A program made the translations under genes and the position numbers. From positions 124,001 to 188,000 of the forward strand of contig CAMCBW010000001.1 in NCBI GenBank assembly GCA_945873105.1: 64,000 bases of DNA. Reading direction: 5' to 3'. The DNA is from Tangfeifania diversioriginum (lineage in GTDB: Bacteria > Bacteroidota > Bacteroidia > Bacteroidales > Prolixibacteraceae). Positions 29,113 to 42,910 of the stretch are shown piece by piece (position 1 is the stretch's first letter; each line of letters starts with the position of its first letter). The notes under the pieces are model-generated. The model was not told the DNA's origin, made no database searches, and worked only from the letters and a program-made list of their open reading frames with translations.

Positions 29113-29186
29113 GGTTTGGTAGTTCAGTTGGTTAGAATACCTGCCTGTCACGCAGGGGGTCGCGGGTTCGAGTCCCGTCCAGACCG
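29113..29186 (+). tRNA. tRNA-Asp (GTC), first copy
   Basis: A 74-nt cloverleaf: acceptor GGTTTGG pairs with CCAGACC (one G-T pair), anticodon stem CCTGC/GCAGG encloses CTGTCAC with anticodon GTC, T-arm GCGGGTTCGAGTCCCGT, discriminator G as expected for Asp. CCA is not fully encoded. Confidence 0.96.
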
Positions 29187-29208
29187 CATCAAACGTTCTT
29201 AATCTTTT

Positions 29209-29282
29209 GGTTTGGTAGTTCAGTTGGTTAGAATACCTGCCTGTCACGCAGGGGGTCGCGGGTTCGAGTCCCGTCCAGACCG
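29209..29282 (+). tRNA. tRNA-Asp (GTC), second copy
   Basis: Identical over all 74 nt to the first copy, 22 bp downstream, same anticodon GTC and discriminator G. The pair is co-transcribed from the promoter at 29026 and ends at the terminator that follows immediately. Confidence 0.96.
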
Positions 29283-29283
29283 C

Positions 29284-37179: not shown

Positions 37180-37752
37180 CTACTGTCCGAGTTTCCTAAA
37201 ACTGACATCTTGTTTGATACTGGTAATCAGGTACTCTTTGCATTTAAATTTCCGCTTTTTAACATATTTCTCGCCACTGAAGCCCATTATTTGTGCAATT
37301 TGTTTCAATGGAACCTTGTCGAAAAAAAGCTGTAATAATTTTTGACAATCACTTCCCAGCAGTTGAAAGTGCTTCTGGTACAGTTTAAACCGCTCATTTT
37401 TCTCCACCAATTCAGAAAAATCGTGATCAAATTCTGCCTCAAGGGGTGTAGAATCGATGATCATCTCTTTTTCAGTTTTTTGACGGGTGAGTTGTTTGTA
37501 CCAAAGGAATTTACATACTGAATAAATGTAAGTTTCAAAAGCACAGTTCATTACCAGATCGTTAGCCTTAAGTTTTCGGTAAACAACGATGATGGCTTCC
37601 TGGAATACATCATTGGCATCTTCATCGTTTCCACTGTTTTTTTTGATGTACAGGTTCACTTTGTAGTAGAAGTTCTTGTAAATATGCTGGAGTATTACGT
37701 TGTCGTTGCGTAATATTCCATTTAGAAGCTCTTCGTTGCTGTAATTGATCAT
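37180..37752 (-). CDS. ECF-type RNA polymerase sigma factor
   Basis: A 190-residue sigma-70 family protein with only regions 2 and 4. Region 2 includes NDEDANDVFQEAIIVVYRKL and YIYSVCKFLWYKQL; region 4 includes SDCQKLLQLFFDKVPLKQIA and GFSGEKYVKKRKFKCKEYL. Its ATG overlaps the stop of the TPR-CHAT gene as ATGA, so translation of the two is coupled. The likely antagonist or partner is the anti-sigma-like membrane protein at 41137-42636. Target promoters are unknown; the divergent gap at 40617-40835 is the first place to look. Confidence 0.9.
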   Translation of the reverse strand: MINYSNEELLNGILRNDNVILQHIYKNFYYKVNLYIKKNSGNDEDANDVFQEAIIVVYRKLKANDLVMNCAFETYIYSVCKFLWYKQLTRQKTEKEMIIDSTPLEAEFDHDFSELVEKNERFKLYQKHFQLLGSDCQKLLQLFFDKVPLKQIAQIMGFSGEKYVKKRKFKCKEYLITSIKQDVSFRKLGQ

Positions 37753-40616
37753 TTTAGTTGGCTAATTCTCTTTTTTCGCTTGAAATACCATTTCTCCAAA
37801 ACGATTGCTAAAAATACAAAAATAATCAAGCTGACAAAATAACCTGCTTTTGTTTTGAACAAGGGGGTCTGCCTTCCGATTGAAACATATCCAAGCCAAA
37901 AATGTGGGTGGGCCTTCAATGGATCTGCCTTTGAAATGTAGGAGATCTTGGCTCTCCTAAGGGCTTCATCTTTGGAATACCCATTTTTCAGATTCTTGTA
38001 AAACTCAACCATGATGGATGAACTGGAAATGTCTTCCACATTCCACAGTGTCATAATGATGGCAGGGCATCCGGCAAAAAGGAATCCTCTTGCGAGACTC
38101 ATCACTCCTTCCCCCTTTTGTAGCTTCCCCGAACCAGTATTGCATCCGCTCAGGACCACCATATCGGAGTGAAGTTGCAGGTTGTAGATCTCATAAGTAT
38201 TAAGAGCCCTGTCATCTTTTTGGCTTACATCTTCCGAAAAAACCATTTTGGAATAGAGTGGTAGTGTGTCATTTAACATCGTATGCATCGCCAGGTGGAG
38301 AATATCATATTTCCCAGCATTTTGCAGAAAAATCTGCTTTGTGGCATCTGATTTTAGGAATTGATCACCCGAAATTATTCTTGTAACAGCTTTTACTTCT
38401 GTTTCTGCTCCTGGCAACGGCAGAAAATGTTCGTGTGTCGATCCTGGTAAGCCGGGCCCATCCGAATAGTCTGGTGCAAAAGCTGCTATCTTACTGCTGT
38501 ATTTGGTGTTGGTCTGGAAGTAATAATAGAGCAGTGTAGCAGAATAGGTATAGGAGATGGCATGATGATGGAGCAGATAATCCAGCTTCCCAAAATCCAT
38601 TTTGCTGCCATCGGCCGGTGATGCCAGGAGTGCATCAAAAGGCAGGTAGGAGAGGATCCCGTCTGGAACAATCACCAGCCGGTAGTCTTGCATCGCAGGA
38701 ACAACTGGTTCTATCAGCAATTTGTACAAATCGGAGGCATTGTTGGTGAATTGAATATAGTCGGCTTTCTTTGTACTAAGAACCTGGCTATTCCGAATAA
38801 ATTTCAGAAATTGATCGATGACCGCATTGAAATCACGAATTAGTGGTTTTCGCAAGATTTTGTATTCATTGTCGGTAATGACAAAAATGTAAATCTCTCC
38901 GTTATTCCCTGCTGTTCCTTCGTTGATGAAATATTCGATGAAGGCATCTCTCCTGTTAAGGGATTGCTGTACTTTTTGCAGAGGAACCACTGGGTCGGCA
39001 TATTTGTACTGGTAGTAACTTGGGAAATTGTTCTCAATGTAACGGATCATTTGCTGGTAACTCTGGGTGAGTGCAAAAACCTTGTCTTTCCATTGATTGA
39101 TCTTTGACAGGTCAGGTTTGGAAGCACTCTTTTCGTTGAAAATAAAATTCTCATGGGCTGCAATCTCACCCTTTAAGTCAGTCTCTTTCTGCAACAGTGA
39201 ATCGGGAAGTCCCGAGCTCTTTTTTGCCCTTAATTCCCTTAGCATGGCCTGAAAATTGGCGGATCTGCTACGCTCAGAAATCTCAAAACTTTTCTCGAAA
39301 TATTGTCGCTCCCCGGTTAATTCGTACAACCGTACTGCTGCTTCCAGGGCTTTTGGATATACAGCATGCTCATTCTCTGCCAGAAATAGTCTGCTTTCCT
39401 GGTTCTGGTAACTGTTTCTGATCAGTTGTATGGTTTTGATACAAAGGTCATAGGTCGCCAATGAGAGTCTTAGTCTGGCCAGATTGGCTTTTTTATTTTC
39501 CTGTTTTTCTTCCACCTGGGAAAGCAGGTAAAGTGCTTCTGCCTTGTCTTTCAGTACATCCAGCAAAAGTGTCTTGTCAAAAGCCTCTTCAGAATTAGGA
39601 TTTGAATCCCATTTTTCATTGGTAAATCCGGGAGTTAGAGAAATAATTGCCTGTTGAAAATATTCAAGAGATGTTTCTATGTTTTTCTTACGTTGCGAGA
39701 GAAAGGTCACCAGATTGTTCTCGTTTTCTTTCTTTCTGAGGTAGTTTAGCCCGATGTCCTTGAGACAGGTGGAGTAGGAGATGTTTTGTTTGCCCAAGCT
39801 TTTTTCTATTAAATCTTTCGCAATTTGGTAATTGGCTAATGAATTGGTAAAATCACCCATTTCGAGGTAAACCATGCCGAGATTCATGTATATCAGGCCC
39901 TTGTCTGCAAAATTTTTCCCAAGATCCTTTTCTCCAACTTGTATGGCTCTTTGTAAATTGGCAATGCTATTGAAGTATTCCTTCTTTTCCAGACAAATCA
40001 TTCCCTTGCAGGTCAATTTATTGTAATTCAGGACACTATGAGGCTTAATATCAAACGATTTTAGGTTATATATTTCTGCTTGAGGTATATTCCTGTTATC
40101 CAAGAAAAAGTTTACCAAATTGATCAATAATTTTTCATATTCACCTGGATTATTTTTTTTTAGCTTCTGGAAAATCCTGTCAGAAGTCTCGTAATAAGAT
40201 CTTGCCTGTTCTATGTCTCCCTTGGCATTGTAGCAGATTCCCAAATTCTGGTACACTGACGCCAATTTATCTAACCTTGTTTCTCTTTCTGCTTCAAAAA
40301 TGGGAATTGATTTTTCGTAATAGGCTATGGCTTCGTCTGATAGACCCAAAAGGCTCTTGACTGCTCCCAGATTGGTCATTACATTGGCAACAGGAACTGA
40401 GTTTTCTCCATATTTTTCTATTCGCTTTTGGTACAATTCCCCATATAGGTTCAATGCCTTGTCAAAGTAGCGATCGTTGTAGGCCTGACTTGCCCGGGTT
40501 CTTAAATCCAATTCCTGTTCATCCGTAATGTGTTGCGCCTGCATCAGCATAGGTTGGACACAAAAAATGAAAAGGCAAAGCGTTTTCTTAAGGATATAGA
40601 TCGAATTGTACCTCAT
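37749..40616 (-). CDS. Exported, membrane-anchored TPR-CHAT (caspase-like) protein
   Basis: Start placed at 40616 (MRYNSIYILKK), which gives a signal peptide cleaved near LMQAQ; 955 residues. About residues 35-450 are tetratricopeptide repeats (e.g. VYQNLGICYNAKGDIEQARS, IYMNLGMVYLEMGDFTNSLA). A helical linker follows, then the CHAT domain with the His-Cys dyad in ILHLAMHT (H778) and LSGCNTGSG (C825) and the following ARGFLFAGCPAIIMTLW. A transmembrane helix at about 925-943 is followed by the basic tail KRKKRISQLK, so the protease domain should face the periplasm. The gene is upstream of and coupled to the ECF sigma gene and divergent from a double-glycine peptide gene. Confidence 0.93.
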   Translation of the reverse strand: MRYNSIYILKKTLCLFIFCVQPMLMQAQHITDEQELDLRTRASQAYNDRYFDKALNLYGELYQKRIEKYGENSVPVANVMTNLGAVKSLLGLSDEAIAYYEKSIPIFEAERETRLDKLASVYQNLGICYNAKGDIEQARSYYETSDRIFQKLKKNNPGEYEKLLINLVNFFLDNRNIPQAEIYNLKSFDIKPHSVLNYNKLTCKGMICLEKKEYFNSIANLQRAIQVGEKDLGKNFADKGLIYMNLGMVYLEMGDFTNSLANYQIAKDLIEKSLGKQNISYSTCLKDIGLNYLRKKENENNLVTFLSQRKKNIETSLEYFQQAIISLTPGFTNEKWDSNPNSEEAFDKTLLLDVLKDKAEALYLLSQVEEKQENKKANLARLRLSLATYDLCIKTIQLIRNSYQNQESRLFLAENEHAVYPKALEAAVRLYELTGERQYFEKSFEISERSRSANFQAMLRELRAKKSSGLPDSLLQKETDLKGEIAAHENFIFNEKSASKPDLSKINQWKDKVFALTQSYQQMIRYIENNFPSYYQYKYADPVVPLQKVQQSLNRRDAFIEYFINEGTAGNNGEIYIFVITDNEYKILRKPLIRDFNAVIDQFLKFIRNSQVLSTKKADYIQFTNNASDLYKLLIEPVVPAMQDYRLVIVPDGILSYLPFDALLASPADGSKMDFGKLDYLLHHHAISYTYSATLLYYYFQTNTKYSSKIAAFAPDYSDGPGLPGSTHEHFLPLPGAETEVKAVTRIISGDQFLKSDATKQIFLQNAGKYDILHLAMHTMLNDTLPLYSKMVFSEDVSQKDDRALNTYEIYNLQLHSDMVVLSGCNTGSGKLQKGEGVMSLARGFLFAGCPAIIMTLWNVEDISSSSIMVEFYKNLKNGYSKDEALRRAKISYISKADPLKAHPHFWLGYVSIGRQTPLFKTKAGYFVSLIIFVFLAIVLEKWYFKRKKRISQLK

Positions 40617-40835
40617 TATTGATGGGGATCTGTGATTCTGTTGATGAAAATTAAGTAAAAATTCAGATTTCAAAGTCAAAATTAAATTTTTTAATACACT
40701 AGTTATCAATCAGATAAAAAAATATTTAAAAAAAGTGTGTTTTTTTTAAAATTTCGGGGTAACCTTTTAAGGGTTCATGGTATTAAGAATTGCAAGGAAC
40801 AATAAAGATTCATTAACTTATTAAAACAATTTACC
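40617..40835. promoter_or_regulatory. Divergent control region between TPR-CHAT and the double-glycine peptide gene
   Basis: 219 bp, strongly AT-rich. It contains a palindromic GGTAACC core (40758-40764 within CGGGGTAACCTTTT) flanked by A/T tracts, a possible ECF-sigma -35 or operator. The segment TTGCAAGGAACAATAAAG (40790-40807) recurs almost exactly, on the opposite strand, in the three repeats at 42661-42873. No clear TAnnTTTG box is seen towards the peptide gene, which is compatible with control by an alternative sigma factor. Confidence 0.45.
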
Positions 40836-40940
40836 ATGAAAAATTTTGATTACACAACAGTTGAAGTACTTTCCAACGAAGAATTGGCATCAGTAAAAGG
40901 TGGATACGGAATTCCTGTTCCGATTATCATCAACGAATAA
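40836..40940 (+). CDS. 34-residue peptide with a double-glycine leader
   Basis: The product is a leader MKNFDYTTVEVLSNEELASV plus KGG, followed by the short hydrophobic tail YGIPVPIIINE. The LSNEELASVKGG stretch is the classic double-glycine (bacteriocin/RiPP-precursor-type) leader end, with the cut expected after G23. The predicted core is only 11 residues with two prolines and no cysteine. No C39 peptidase/ABC exporter or modification enzyme lies in the window, so processing would be in trans. It sits between the divergent TPR-CHAT/sigma operon and the anti-sigma-like gene. It could be a secreted signal, or a substrate of the CHAT protein. Confidence 0.8.
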   Translation: MKNFDYTTVEVLSNEELASVKGGYGIPVPIIINE

Positions 40941-41056
40941 TTTTTATCCAAAGATATTTATCAGCAGGACAGGTGTAATTTAAGACCTGCACTGTTTCGA
41001 TGGCGCTTTTGCTATAGTTTTGCAATGTTTGTGTTGCTTCGCTCTGTTAGGACGGC

Positions 41057-41070
41057 AGCATACGTATGCT
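41057..41070. promoter_or_regulatory. Perfect 14-bp palindrome upstream of the anti-sigma-like gene
   Basis: AGCATACGTATGCT is fully self-complementary and lies 67 bp before the start at 41137, between the peptide gene and the anti-sigma-like gene. It could be an operator. A weaker hairpin CAGGT/ACCTG lies at about 40968-40987, just after the peptide stop. Confidence 0.35.
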
Positions 41071-41136
41071 AGAATGTATTGCATTTCTTTGAATCAATTT
41101 GTGTAGTAAGAAGTTATGCATTAAGAATTTAACCAA

Positions 41137-42636
41137 ATGATCCCCAAGAGTAACAAACATCAAGAGAAGAGTATCACAGCATGTGATAATCCGGACGGTG
41201 AAACAGGGACATACCCTTCCAGTTTTATCGATGAGGACAACTTGTGCGAAGATTCGGTACTTTGTCAGGAGATCGAGGAGGCAGTTCGTGAGTTGGAGAT
41301 CATTACATTACGAAATAAATTGAAAAATATCAACAAACAACCAGGAGTTCCCTTTACGGGAGAGCAGTCAATGGACACAGATGCTTACTTTGGCTTGTCT
41401 GAAGAGCTGGTTAACCCAGTCAAACTTAACCTGGAAGAGGAAGGAGCTGGCATAGGGAATTACCTTCAGAAGCTCCATATCAAGAACCACGCCATCACAT
41501 CGAAAGAACAGATCCATGATCTATATTCTGAAGCGGTAGCGTTGGCTGAGGCCGACAATATGCTGATGTCACCGGAGGATGAAATGTTATTTGGTGATGT
41601 TAGGGAGGCCGTTACAGAAAAAGAAATTTTAGACCTGAGGGCAAATCTTCAATCAATTGCTCAGAGCGTTTCGGTGCATGAACGTACATTTGATGAAATC
41701 GAAGCGTTTGTTTCAGGAGAGTTAGACGAAGAAATAGAATTCCAAATCAGGGAAGAGGCAAGGATCAACAATGCGCTTTCCTTCGAAATAGCACTTCACA
41801 GCGAATTGGATGAAGCTGTTGAAGAGCAAGATGTTATGATACTTCGGGCTAACCTGAGAGGTATCATACAGAACGAATACTCCCATTCTCACAGCATAGA
41901 GGAGATAGATGGTTATTTGAATGATGAGCTTGATGGGCAGGCCCTGTCCTTGTTCGAGGATGAGCTGGTCGCCAATTCTGGCTTGGCTGATGATCTGGCT
42001 TTCCACAAGGAATTGGATCGGGCCATCTCCGAGGCAGATGTAATGGCATTAAGGTCAAGTCTGAAAGATATTTCCCATACCCAGCAGGTTCTGCCTGATG
42101 AAAGGCTTGGTGTTGTAACTCCGCATAGAAAACATCTATTCTGGTATGCGGCAGCCTCAGTGCTCTTGTTGATGTTTGTGTTTACCTCCCTGGTAAAGAA
42201 TCGGAATTATTCCAACCAACAATTGTATACAGCATATTATCAGCCATATAAAAATACCGAAAGTGTTTCGAGGTCAACATTGGGCGCTTATAGTAACCTA
42301 AATTCGGCTTTGCACAACATCGACATTGGCAATTACCATGATGCAATTTCACAACTGAAGAGTACTCCTGAAGTTGAAAGAGATGGTTACAGTGTCAATT
42401 TCTATTCAGGTGTTGTATACCAGGAATTGGGAGAATACAACAGTGCAATCAACTCTTTCACGGAAGTTGTGCGGCATGGTGATAATTTGCTGGTAGAGCA
42501 GTCAGAATGGTACATTGGGCTTTGTTATCTAAGAACCGATGAACGGGAAAAAGCACTGGCACAATTTAGAACGATTGTCACGAGAAAGGGCTATTATGGT
42601 GAGCAGTCCAGAAAATTGTTGAAGCAGTTGGAATAA
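41137..42636 (+). CDS. Single-pass membrane protein with repeated anti-sigma-like units and a periplasmic TPR domain
   Basis: A 499-residue protein. The cytoplasmic part (1-334) is a tandem repeat of about 69 residues. The helix EAVxExExxxLRxxLxxI recurs at 46-65, 154-174, 223-243 and 292-312; between copies lies an IDGYLNDELDGQALSLFEDE-type segment (188-223, 257-292, and a decayed copy at 82-120) that resembles the helical N-terminus of Bacteroidota anti-sigma proteins. A membrane helix is at 335-353, followed by a periplasmic TPR region (SALHNIDIGNYHDAISQL, YSGVVYQELGEYNSAINSF, WYIGLCYLRTDEREKALAQF). It probably controls the neighbouring ECF sigma factor. No zinc ligands are seen. Confidence 0.85.
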   Translation: MIPKSNKHQEKSITACDNPDGETGTYPSSFIDEDNLCEDSVLCQEIEEAVRELEIITLRNKLKNINKQPGVPFTGEQSMDTDAYFGLSEELVNPVKLNLEEEGAGIGNYLQKLHIKNHAITSKEQIHDLYSEAVALAEADNMLMSPEDEMLFGDVREAVTEKEILDLRANLQSIAQSVSVHERTFDEIEAFVSGELDEEIEFQIREEARINNALSFEIALHSELDEAVEEQDVMILRANLRGIIQNEYSHSHSIEEIDGYLNDELDGQALSLFEDELVANSGLADDLAFHKELDRAISEADVMALRSSLKDISHTQQVLPDERLGVVTPHRKHLFWYAAASVLLLMFVFTSLVKNRNYSNQQLYTAYYQPYKNTESVSRSTLGAYSNLNSALHNIDIGNYHDAISQLKSTPEVERDGYSVNFYSGVVYQELGEYNSAINSFTEVVRHGDNLLVEQSEWYIGLCYLRTDEREKALAQFRTIVTRKGYYGEQSRKLLKQLE

Positions 42637-42660: not shown

Positions 42661-42701
42661 ATAAGTTACTTTATTCGTTCCTTGCAAAATGATGTAGTAA
42701 C
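42661..42701. repeat. 41-bp repeat, copy 1
   Basis: Starts ATAAGTTACTTTATTCGTTC and ends with AGTAAC; the ends GTTACT/AGTAAC are inverted. On the minus strand its core TTGCAAGGAACGAATAAAG resembles the 5' leader of the peptide gene at 40790-40807. Confidence 0.9.
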
Positions 42702-42743
42702 ACTTAATGCAGAAGAAGATAAAGGGTAAATTTGAAATCAGGA

Positions 42744-42784
42744 ATAAGTTACTTTGTTCGTTCCTTGCAAAATGAAACAGTAAC
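42744..42784. repeat. 41-bp repeat, copy 2
   Basis: Same unit, 83 bp after copy 1, differing at about four bases (TTTGTTCG for TTTATTCG; GAAACAG for GATGTAG). Inverted ends GTTACT/AGTAAC retained. Confidence 0.9.
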
Positions 42785-42832
42785 CACTGGTGGAGAAAAG
42801 TAAAATATAGAGCGGTAGAACCAAGGTTATTA

Positions 42833-42873
42833 ATAAGTTACTTTATTCGTTCCTTGCAAAATGATGCAGTAAC
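42833..42873. repeat. 41-bp repeat, copy 3
   Basis: Same unit, 89 bp after copy 2; differs from copy 1 at a single base (GATGCAG for GATGTAG). The unrelated sequence between copies is 42 and 48 bp long. No cas genes or leader are present. Confidence 0.9.
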
Positions 42874-42910
42874 TGAAGGCGATTTGGTTTTTCCAGGTAA
42901 ATTATAGCTT

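Follow-up and report, generated by a model that had tools for sequence, protein, structure and literature searches.

A conserved four-gene module of an ECF sigma factor, an exported TPR-CHAT protein, a double-glycine peptide and an anti-sigma-like membrane protein in Tangfeifania diversioriginum and its relatives

The 64,000-nucleotide (nt) stretch of Tangfeifania diversioriginum DNA analysed here (positions 124,001-188,000 of contig CAMCBW010000001.1, hereafter the window) carries a four-gene module that is real and conserved. The genes encode an extracytoplasmic function (ECF) sigma factor, an exported protein combining tetratricopeptide repeats (TPRs) with a CHAT domain, a short peptide with a double-glycine (GG) leader and an anti-sigma-like membrane protein, P0003. 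A sequence-only reading of the window had already placed the four genes here, the first two overlapping as ATGA and the peptide gene divergent, and coordinates and family matches bear out this arrangement. The features, in window coordinates, are as follows.

37180..37752, minus strand: ECF sigma factor, 190 amino acids (aa), P0001 (TIGR02937; profile alignment to SigW and SigE)
37749..40616, minus strand: exported TPR-CHAT protein, 955 aa (PF12770 and TPRs; ATG start at 40616)
37791..37841, minus strand: C-terminal transmembrane (TM) segment of the TPR-CHAT protein, about residues 926-942, followed by a basic tail (TM in 57/58 homologues)
38142..38144, minus strand: codon of Cys825, probable catalytic cysteine (invariant, 58/58)
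38283..38285, minus strand: codon of His778, probable catalytic histidine (invariant, 58/58)
40536..40616, minus strand: signal peptide of the TPR-CHAT protein, probable cleavage MQA/QH (hydrophobic N-terminus, Gln at +1)
40757..40785, plus strand: ECF-like promoter of the peptide gene, GGGTAACCTTT-N12-GTATTA (sole match in the window)
40836..40940, plus strand: GG-leader peptide gene, 34 aa, P0004, divergent from the TPR-CHAT gene (core YGIPVPIIINE after the GG)
41137..42636, plus strand: anti-sigma-like membrane protein P0003, 499 aa, with repeats, one TM segment and a periplasmic TPR domain
41689..42087, plus strand: two complete four-helix repeat units of P0003, about residues 185-247 and 254-317, putatively sigma-binding (secondary structure of the model)
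42139..42195, plus strand: single TM segment of P0003, residues 335-353 (exactly one in 64/64 homologues)
42271..42276, plus strand: stalk Arg379-Ser380 of P0003, candidate CHAT cut site (R[SATG] pair in 64/64)
42295..42630, plus strand: predicted periplasmic TPR domain of P0003, residues 387-498 (predicted local distance difference test score, pLDDT, mostly above 90; fold match to YbgF-type TPR)

The sigma factor matches TIGR02937 (6e-14; 52 bits against a cut-off of 42.9) and also exceeds the cut-off for Sigma70_r2. A profile of its family aligned with the solved SigW and SigE over positions 3-180, covering both domains, and P0001 possesses the sigma-70 regions 2 and 4 only that define ECF factors. 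In six loci of the same genus the protein is 85-92% identical. Its ATG (37752-37750) overlaps the TGA stop codon of the TPR-CHAT gene (37751-37749). The start of the latter is likely to be the ATG at 40616 rather than the mechanically assigned TTG at 40709.

The CHAT domain is unambiguous in profile searches (PF12770, 1.6e-55; 189 bits against a cut-off of 24), TPRs are matched as well, and this is the single CHAT match in the genome; PADLOC returned a TPR match for the protein and nothing else. Both His778 and Cys825 are present in every one of the 58 homologues compared, as expected of a CHAT peptidase, and His774 is invariant too; by likeness to other CHAT domains, His778 and Cys825 are the probable catalytic pair. 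A hydrophobic N-terminal segment is found in 51 of the 58 homologues, and the Gln at +1 of the predicted cleavage site fits the Bacteroidetes Q-rule (PMC5837995). At the other end of the protein a TM segment is predicted in 57 homologues and a net positive tail in all 58, with an internal TM segment in none (0/58). The AlphaFold2 model has a mean pLDDT of 86.3 and a predicted template modelling score (pTM) of 0.81, and its best fold matches are the TPR-CHAT protein of Craspase, separases and the transmembrane anti-sigma factor DdvA.

For P0003, the single TM segment and the C-terminal TPR domain are clear: none of the 64 homologues has a signal-like segment at its N-terminus, and the part following the membrane, with the TPR domain, is 139-153 residues long. 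Given the topologies of the two proteins at their N- and C-termini, the CHAT domain and the TPR domain of P0003 are predicted to share the periplasm. The N-terminal repeats, the earlier units of which are degenerate in the window copy, are the putative sigma-binding part. Similarity to the zinc-finger family PF13490 (zf-HC2) was found in four of ten N-terminal segments, each time below the cut-off (best 18.3 against 22.2 bits), and was not found in that of the window protein. A fold search with the P0003 model gave TPR and other helical proteins, none of the 50 matches listed having a title that names an anti-sigma factor. One TM segment, no signal peptide and a gene directly behind the sigma gene are usual for anti-sigma factors; the P0003 gene has this position in 42 of the 66 loci with both genes, though not in the window's own genus, and elsewhere the CHAT gene mostly lies between the two. 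The anti-sigma-like label is the weakest part of the gene assignment, since the N-terminal repeats match no Pfam family over the cut-off.

We followed the linkage of the four genes from two directions. Starting from the CHAT protein, a search of 60 relatives and the genome itself gave matches in 41 of 61 genomes, part of these to TPRs only; tblastn and clustering served to compare the genes around the better ones. Among the resulting 39 loci, several of which are contig ends, the CHAT cluster is represented in 38, the P0003 cluster in 29 and the sigma cluster in 28. Many have the same flanking housekeeping genes as the window, yet six (L049, L056 and L062-L065), sharing no flanking genes with it in the stretch examined, still possess sigma factor, P0003 family member and CHAT protein. 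Starting from an alignment of P0003, a genome scan yielded 105 loci, 80 of which were kept; they come from genera such as Draconibacterium, Maribellus, Mariniphaga, Mangrovibacterium, Sunxiuqinia and Prolixibacter and from metagenome-assembled genomes titled Prolixibacteraceae, Bacteroidales and Bacteroidetes, with one record (L090) titled Chlorobiota and the rest Bacteroidota or genera thereof. Where at least 6 kb was available on both sides, 39 of 43 loci encode both sigma factor and CHAT protein; in the 37 loci nearer a contig edge the figures are 22 with both, six with CHAT only, four with sigma only and five with neither. The two sets overlap in some genomes and are not independent. Both directions, the second with 39/43 loci and with a divergent peptide gene at 52/62 CHAT genes (see below), uphold the expectation that the four genes co-occur in relatives.

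The trio of sigma factor, CHAT protein and P0003 extends further than the peptide. Relatives of P0003 (E 1e-12) are encoded by 79 of 395 Bacteroidota genomes scanned, most of them single-repeat proteins of about 240-280 aa. In 36 loci of other classes, chosen by hand from the matches in these 79 genomes, a sigma gene is present in 30, a CHAT gene in 27 and both in 25. A GG-containing open reading frame (ORF) occurs anywhere within about 14 kb in 12 of the 36, and by inspection none has one divergently placed just upstream of CHAT. In a tree of CHAT proteins (one FastTree run, midpoint root) the 58 from the module form one clade with support 0.996, apart from 26 from other classes. The plain reading would be that the peptide was gained once near the base and lost two or three times later, internal supports being partly low.

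The peptide itself, P0004, has the sequence MKNFDYTTVEVLSNEELASVKGGYGIPVPIIINE. It scores above the cut-off of the bacteriocin-signal family TIGR01847 (17.6 against 15.7 bits) and below those of Pfam, so possesses a GG leader of bacteriocin type; a similar leader motif is seen in relatives, and the peptide is conserved in four loci of the same genus (L033, L035, L036 and L047). In the CHAT-seeded set, 26 of 34 loci, the window included, have a divergent GG ORF upstream of CHAT. The misses comprise L032 and L034, which are contig ends; L049 and L056, which have the trio and no divergent GG ORF; L065, whose GG ORF is on the same strand; and L051, L059 and L066, in which neither sigma factor nor P0003 was found. 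In the P0003-seeded set, 62 CHAT genes were usable, that is, had an intact start and 300 nt upstream, and 52 of these have a divergent GG ORF within 700 nt, 68 ORFs in all; outside these places 2.51 Mb of strand has 41 such ORFs, a background that leads to an expectation of 0.7. In two of the ten misses (L118 and L121) the CHAT gene is split over two frames and the peptide is present further upstream. Conservation within the genus, together with 68 ORFs against 0.7 expected beside CHAT, led us to reject the possibility that the peptide ORF is a chance one.

The cores that follow the leader were compared for 67 peptides from 52 loci, one of the 68 ORFs being left out as of a different kind. They are 10-27 aa long (median 16), none contains Cys, their net charge runs from -9 to 0, and Arg is present in 42. 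Nine loci have tandem copies, with mean identities of 55% for leaders and 94% for cores (21 pairs, not independent); one pair, at L109, runs the opposite way. Between the first copies of six Draconibacterium genomes, leaders are 78% and cores 75% identical (15 pairs, not independent). With cores nearly constant among tandem copies whose leaders differ, the uniformity within a genome would fit a signal more readily than a toxin under diversification.

C39-type exporters are the usual removers of GG leaders, and P0004 may be exported by this route. Genes for C39 exporters are present in the T. diversioriginum genome, one adjoining an HlyD-like gene recognised by eye, and in 12 of the 12 named genomes; there is also one M50 site-2 protease in the genome. 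As C39 exporters occur in eight and M50 proteases in all 14 of 14 control genomes, their presence shows feasibility only.

Upstream of both peptide and sigma genes we found a common element, GGGTWAC(C/G)TTT-N12-(G/C)NAT. Its occurrence ahead of the window's peptide gene is the only one in the window even when one mismatch is allowed, with 0.06 expected. Across the 80 P0003-seeded loci (1.28 Mb) there are 89 sites with the N12 spacer and 0-2 for each of eight other spacers; the pattern was derived from the loci in which it was counted, and it is the spacer control and the count in the genome itself that argue against chance. Of these 89 sites, 74 lie at peptide or sigma genes and 15 are not assigned to them. 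The element precedes 43 of 52 first peptide genes, mostly by 49-62 nt from the ATG, and 31 of 60 operon-leading sigma genes, mostly by 12-20 nt; it precedes none of 63 CHAT genes and none of 78 P0003 genes. The strict pattern is absent from the 36 loci of other classes, and nine loci with promoter sites gave no match in Rfam at gathering scores.

Genome-wide, exact sites are few: three in T. diversioriginum and one to eight in each of 12 named genomes, against 0-2 for the backward control. With up to two mismatches the T. diversioriginum genome has 21 sites against 24 in the control, which is no excess. Most of 21 non-module sites inspected lie ahead of unrelated genes or within genes, and therefore we claim no wider regulon. 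The distribution of sites across genes and their scarcity in the genome make the peptide gene the apparent main target in common, and the pairing of sigma factor and element suggests that this sigma factor may read the element.

Some further sites and elements deserve mention. Five peptide genes from distant Bacteroidales (L137, L140, L142, L143 and L148) have another upstream element, GTGTCAC followed by CGACATG. In the T. diversioriginum genome, one exact site (G000:C8:124422; L152, L187) is followed after 85 nt by a phage-tail-sheath-like gene (PF17482, over the cut-off), with no counterpart among the sites inspected in other genomes, and a family of proteins of about 245 aa (L195, L196, L198, L199 and L201) has promoter-like sites with one or two mismatches 230-262 nt upstream and related leader sequences; one 100-aa stretch of this family gave no Pfam match, and it perhaps represents another ECF regulon. 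In Draconibacterium and Maribellus (L155, L168, L177 and L181) an exact site behind a gene that by eye resembles argS could be the start of a short transcript (about 110 nt) that closes with a terminator-like hairpin and has no match in Rfam. Behind P0003, at 42661-42886, there are three 54-nt repeats, on the minus strand TTGCAAGGAACGAAYAAAGTAAC, which resembles TTGCAAGGAACAATAAAG just upstream of the peptide gene (40790); loci L033, L036 and L047 of the same genus have one copy at a like place. The window also contains two tandem tRNA-Asp (gtc) genes at 29113-29283.

The stretch of P0003 between TM segment and TPR domain is variable apart from a conspicuous Arg, mostly with Ser after it. This Arg occupies one column in 60 of 64 homologues and the next column in the other four, P0003 itself among them, and Ser occupies the second stalk column in 55 of 64. 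Put differently, an R[SATG] pair lies 12-40 residues after the membrane in all 64 and at 22-26 residues in 51. When the domains were shuffled, a mean of 14 had such a pair and none of 1000 shuffles reached 64; since the sequences are related this is not a probability. In the other classes a looser test, R[SGTAP] at 8-45 residues, was passed by 30 of 36, which chance often suffices to explain and which includes one protein (L272) that is not a membrane protein of the P0003 kind. Separase cuts after Arg, and because of this the stalk Arg is a natural candidate for the cut site of a CHAT protease, with Arg379-Ser380 the candidate in the window. The residue may instead have a structural role.

Three known systems invite comparison. 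In type III-E CRISPR systems the TPR-CHAT protease Csx29 cuts Csx30, an inhibitor of an ECF sigma factor, according to the cited passages (PMC10028731; PMC9729208). The module likewise combines TPR-CHAT protein, ECF sigma factor and sigma inhibitor, the last a candidate here and demonstrated for Csx30, and Craspase chains 7zoq_A, 8eey_B and 8eex_B rank first, second and sixth among fold matches of our TPR-CHAT model. Csx29, however, works with Cas7-11 and is switched by RNA, whereas the module protein has a predicted signal peptide and membrane anchor; moreover, the module has a TM protein as its inhibitor candidate and includes a GG peptide. A profile of the CHAT domain found no Csx29 chain in the PDB at E values up to 1, and on this ground and that of the predicted signal peptide and C-terminal anchor we rejected membership of the type III-E CASP family. 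Of the window neighbours, three match Pfam, as S41 peptidase, RlmL-like methyltransferase and NAGPA protein, no search aimed at Cas7-11 having been made.

The second system is that of Myxococcus xanthus, where DdvA is the anti-sigma factor of DdvS (PMC4374960) and DdvS controls a defence island (PMC12288465). It too joins an ECF sigma factor to a transmembrane anti-sigma factor, one with a CHAT domain according to the names and titles of PDB entries 8rot and 8rw5, and these entries rank tenth and fourth among the model's matches (E 0.78 by sequence). DdvA is a single protein, whereas the window and the compared loci encode CHAT and the anti-sigma-like part separately, on which account membership of the DdvA type was rejected; the module also has a GG peptide, none being named for DdvS/DdvA in the cited passages. 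Third, the RseA/DegS pathway, a parallel drawn for Csx30 in the cited passages of PMC10028731, resembles the module in having a membrane anti-sigma factor with a periplasmic part (a candidate here), a periplasmic site-1 protease (proposed here) and a site-2 protease (present here). The proposed site-1 protease is CHAT rather than DegS, and the TPR lies on the periplasmic side. As to the peptide, it shares a GG leader with the class II bacteriocins and ComC-type pheromones of TIGR01847; it differs from these in its Cys-free cores of 10-27 aa, their charge of -9 to 0, its ECF-like promoter and the lack of any exporter or modification enzyme seen conserved beside the module.

The working logic is like that of type III-E and of DdvS/DdvA; what is new is the peptide, its promoter and the separation of protease from anti-sigma-like protein. 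The description of the module as undescribed therefore has to be narrowed: the TPR-CHAT/ECF/inhibitor logic is known, in fused form in DdvS/DdvA, while the peptide and its promoter have no counterpart in the literature consulted, and none of the open-licence PubMed Central papers listed in our searches described a CHAT/ECF/GG-peptide module from Bacteroidota.

We consider a transmembrane signalling relay to be the best explanation of the module, with a chance of being correct that is a little better than even. The repeat part of P0003 would hold the ECF sigma factor in the cytosol, and its TPR domain would stand on the stalk in the periplasm, the same compartment as the TPR-CHAT protein. Once triggered, the latter would cut the stalk after the conserved Arg (Arg379), a site-1 cleavage after which ordinary site-2 and cytosolic proteases would release the sigma factor. 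Free sigma factor would then transcribe the divergent peptide gene and, in many relatives, its own operon; a C39-type exporter would remove the leader and deliver the short core to the periplasm or the outside, where a TPR domain would most likely be the target of its feedback, so that the relay would reinforce or limit itself. The model is well supported in its anatomy (genes, linkage, predicted topology, His/Cys pair, stalk Arg and promoter), and its chemistry is proposed: we infer that P0003 binds the sigma factor, that this factor reads the element, that CHAT makes the cut and where, that the peptide is exported and what it acts on. The sequence-only reading had the periplasmic CHAT domain sense or cut either a peptide or the anti-sigma protein and so free the sigma factor. 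Its compartments fit the predicted topologies, and between the two substrates the evidence favours the anti-sigma-like protein, because the stalk Arg is conserved, because of the Csx29-Csx30 parallel and because the trio occurs without the peptide in other classes.

A number of observations weigh against the relay. The TM-scores of the CHAT fold matches are modest, the best for Csx29 being 0.54 by target length, and the model of P0003, whose repeats match no family over the cut-off, has a pTM of 0.38. Its gene is not directly behind the sigma gene in 24 of the 66 loci holding both, and among the 43 full-context loci three have CHAT and no sigma factor and one the reverse. The promoter is absent from 29 of 60 sigma genes and nine of 52 peptide genes; in the window the sigma gene, which sits behind CHAT, has none of its own. 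Eight of the 62 usable CHAT genes have no leader-type ORF within 1200 nt, two of them (L132 and L145) having unrelated GG-containing ORFs, and no exporter gene conserved beside the module was seen in the CHAT-seeded loci. Finally, the cited passages of PMC11106740 give Craspase cut sites that are neither conserved nor at Arg (A/S, L/D and M/K), so the choice of Arg at P1 rests on the specificity of separase.

An extension of the relay, which we regard as possible but on balance doubtful, is a new type of peptide quorum- or self-sensing, in which the sigma factor would drive an exported acidic peptide, periplasmic TPRs would read its core and the output would be a caspase-like cut at the conserved Arg of the membrane anti-sigma-like protein. 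Nearly one core per genome with diverging leaders is the pattern that a pheromone fitted to its receptor should show. On this view the split protease/anti-sigma/ECF trio, present in several classes of the phylum, could be a stand-alone relative of the type III-E and DdvS/DdvA arrangements.

Among the alternatives, the one that survives best, though we think it unlikely, makes the peptide a feedback inhibitor, its exported core blocking the CHAT active site or the TPR groove and shutting the relay off. Securin occupies separase in this manner, and the fold similarity of CHAT to separase, the sigma-type promoter of the peptide gene, the acidic or neutral, nearly uniform cores of each genome and the occurrence in 40 of 67 cores of R followed by D, E or S, slightly like the stalk Arg-Ser, would all suit such a role. 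Set against this are the 25 of 67 cores that have no Arg, the window's and four complete cores of the same genus included. This alternative overlaps the relay, so our estimates for the two are not exclusive.

Somewhat less probable again is an envelope-stress relay, with an envelope defect as the CHAT trigger, as in RseA/DegS, and the peptide as a by-product. The parallel made for Csx30 (PMC10028731) and the peptide-free trio of other classes speak for it; few exact promoter sites per genome, and no common non-module target among those inspected bar the non-coding one in Draconibacterium and Maribellus, speak against. The peptide-free trio tells in the other direction where the peptide is taken for the main CHAT substrate, to be trimmed or destroyed, with the sigma pair merely regulating its operon. 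We regard this as improbable despite the peptide gene adjoining CHAT divergently in 52 of 62 cases, for the stalk Arg is common across the clade, the cores have no visible shared residue and C39 exporters, the normal removers of GG leaders, are present. A regulated bacteriocin unit, the peptide killing or inhibiting neighbours under control of the sigma module, would account for the TIGR01847 match; it is very improbable given cores that are never net positive and contain no Cys, tandem copies in which the leader varies and the core stays, opposite to what diversified toxins show, and the lack of any further gene family conserved beside the module apart from common flanking genes. Frozen gene order with no functional connection, which the common flanking genes of many family members might suggest, can be dismissed almost entirely, linkage being kept with different neighbours and in other classes, peptide ORFs beside CHAT being about 96-fold over expectation and the promoter being shared.

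If the relay and its peptide are as proposed, Bacteroidota would have a mode of communication new to them, in which peptide signalling runs through an ECF sigma factor and a caspase-like protease. The module would also provide a non-CRISPR setting for the logic of TPR-CHAT protein, sigma inhibitor and ECF factor, in which the general question of how such proteases are switched can be asked. For testing, the sequence offers exact points: a single Arg, a single Cys, a single promoter and a peptide of 11 residues.

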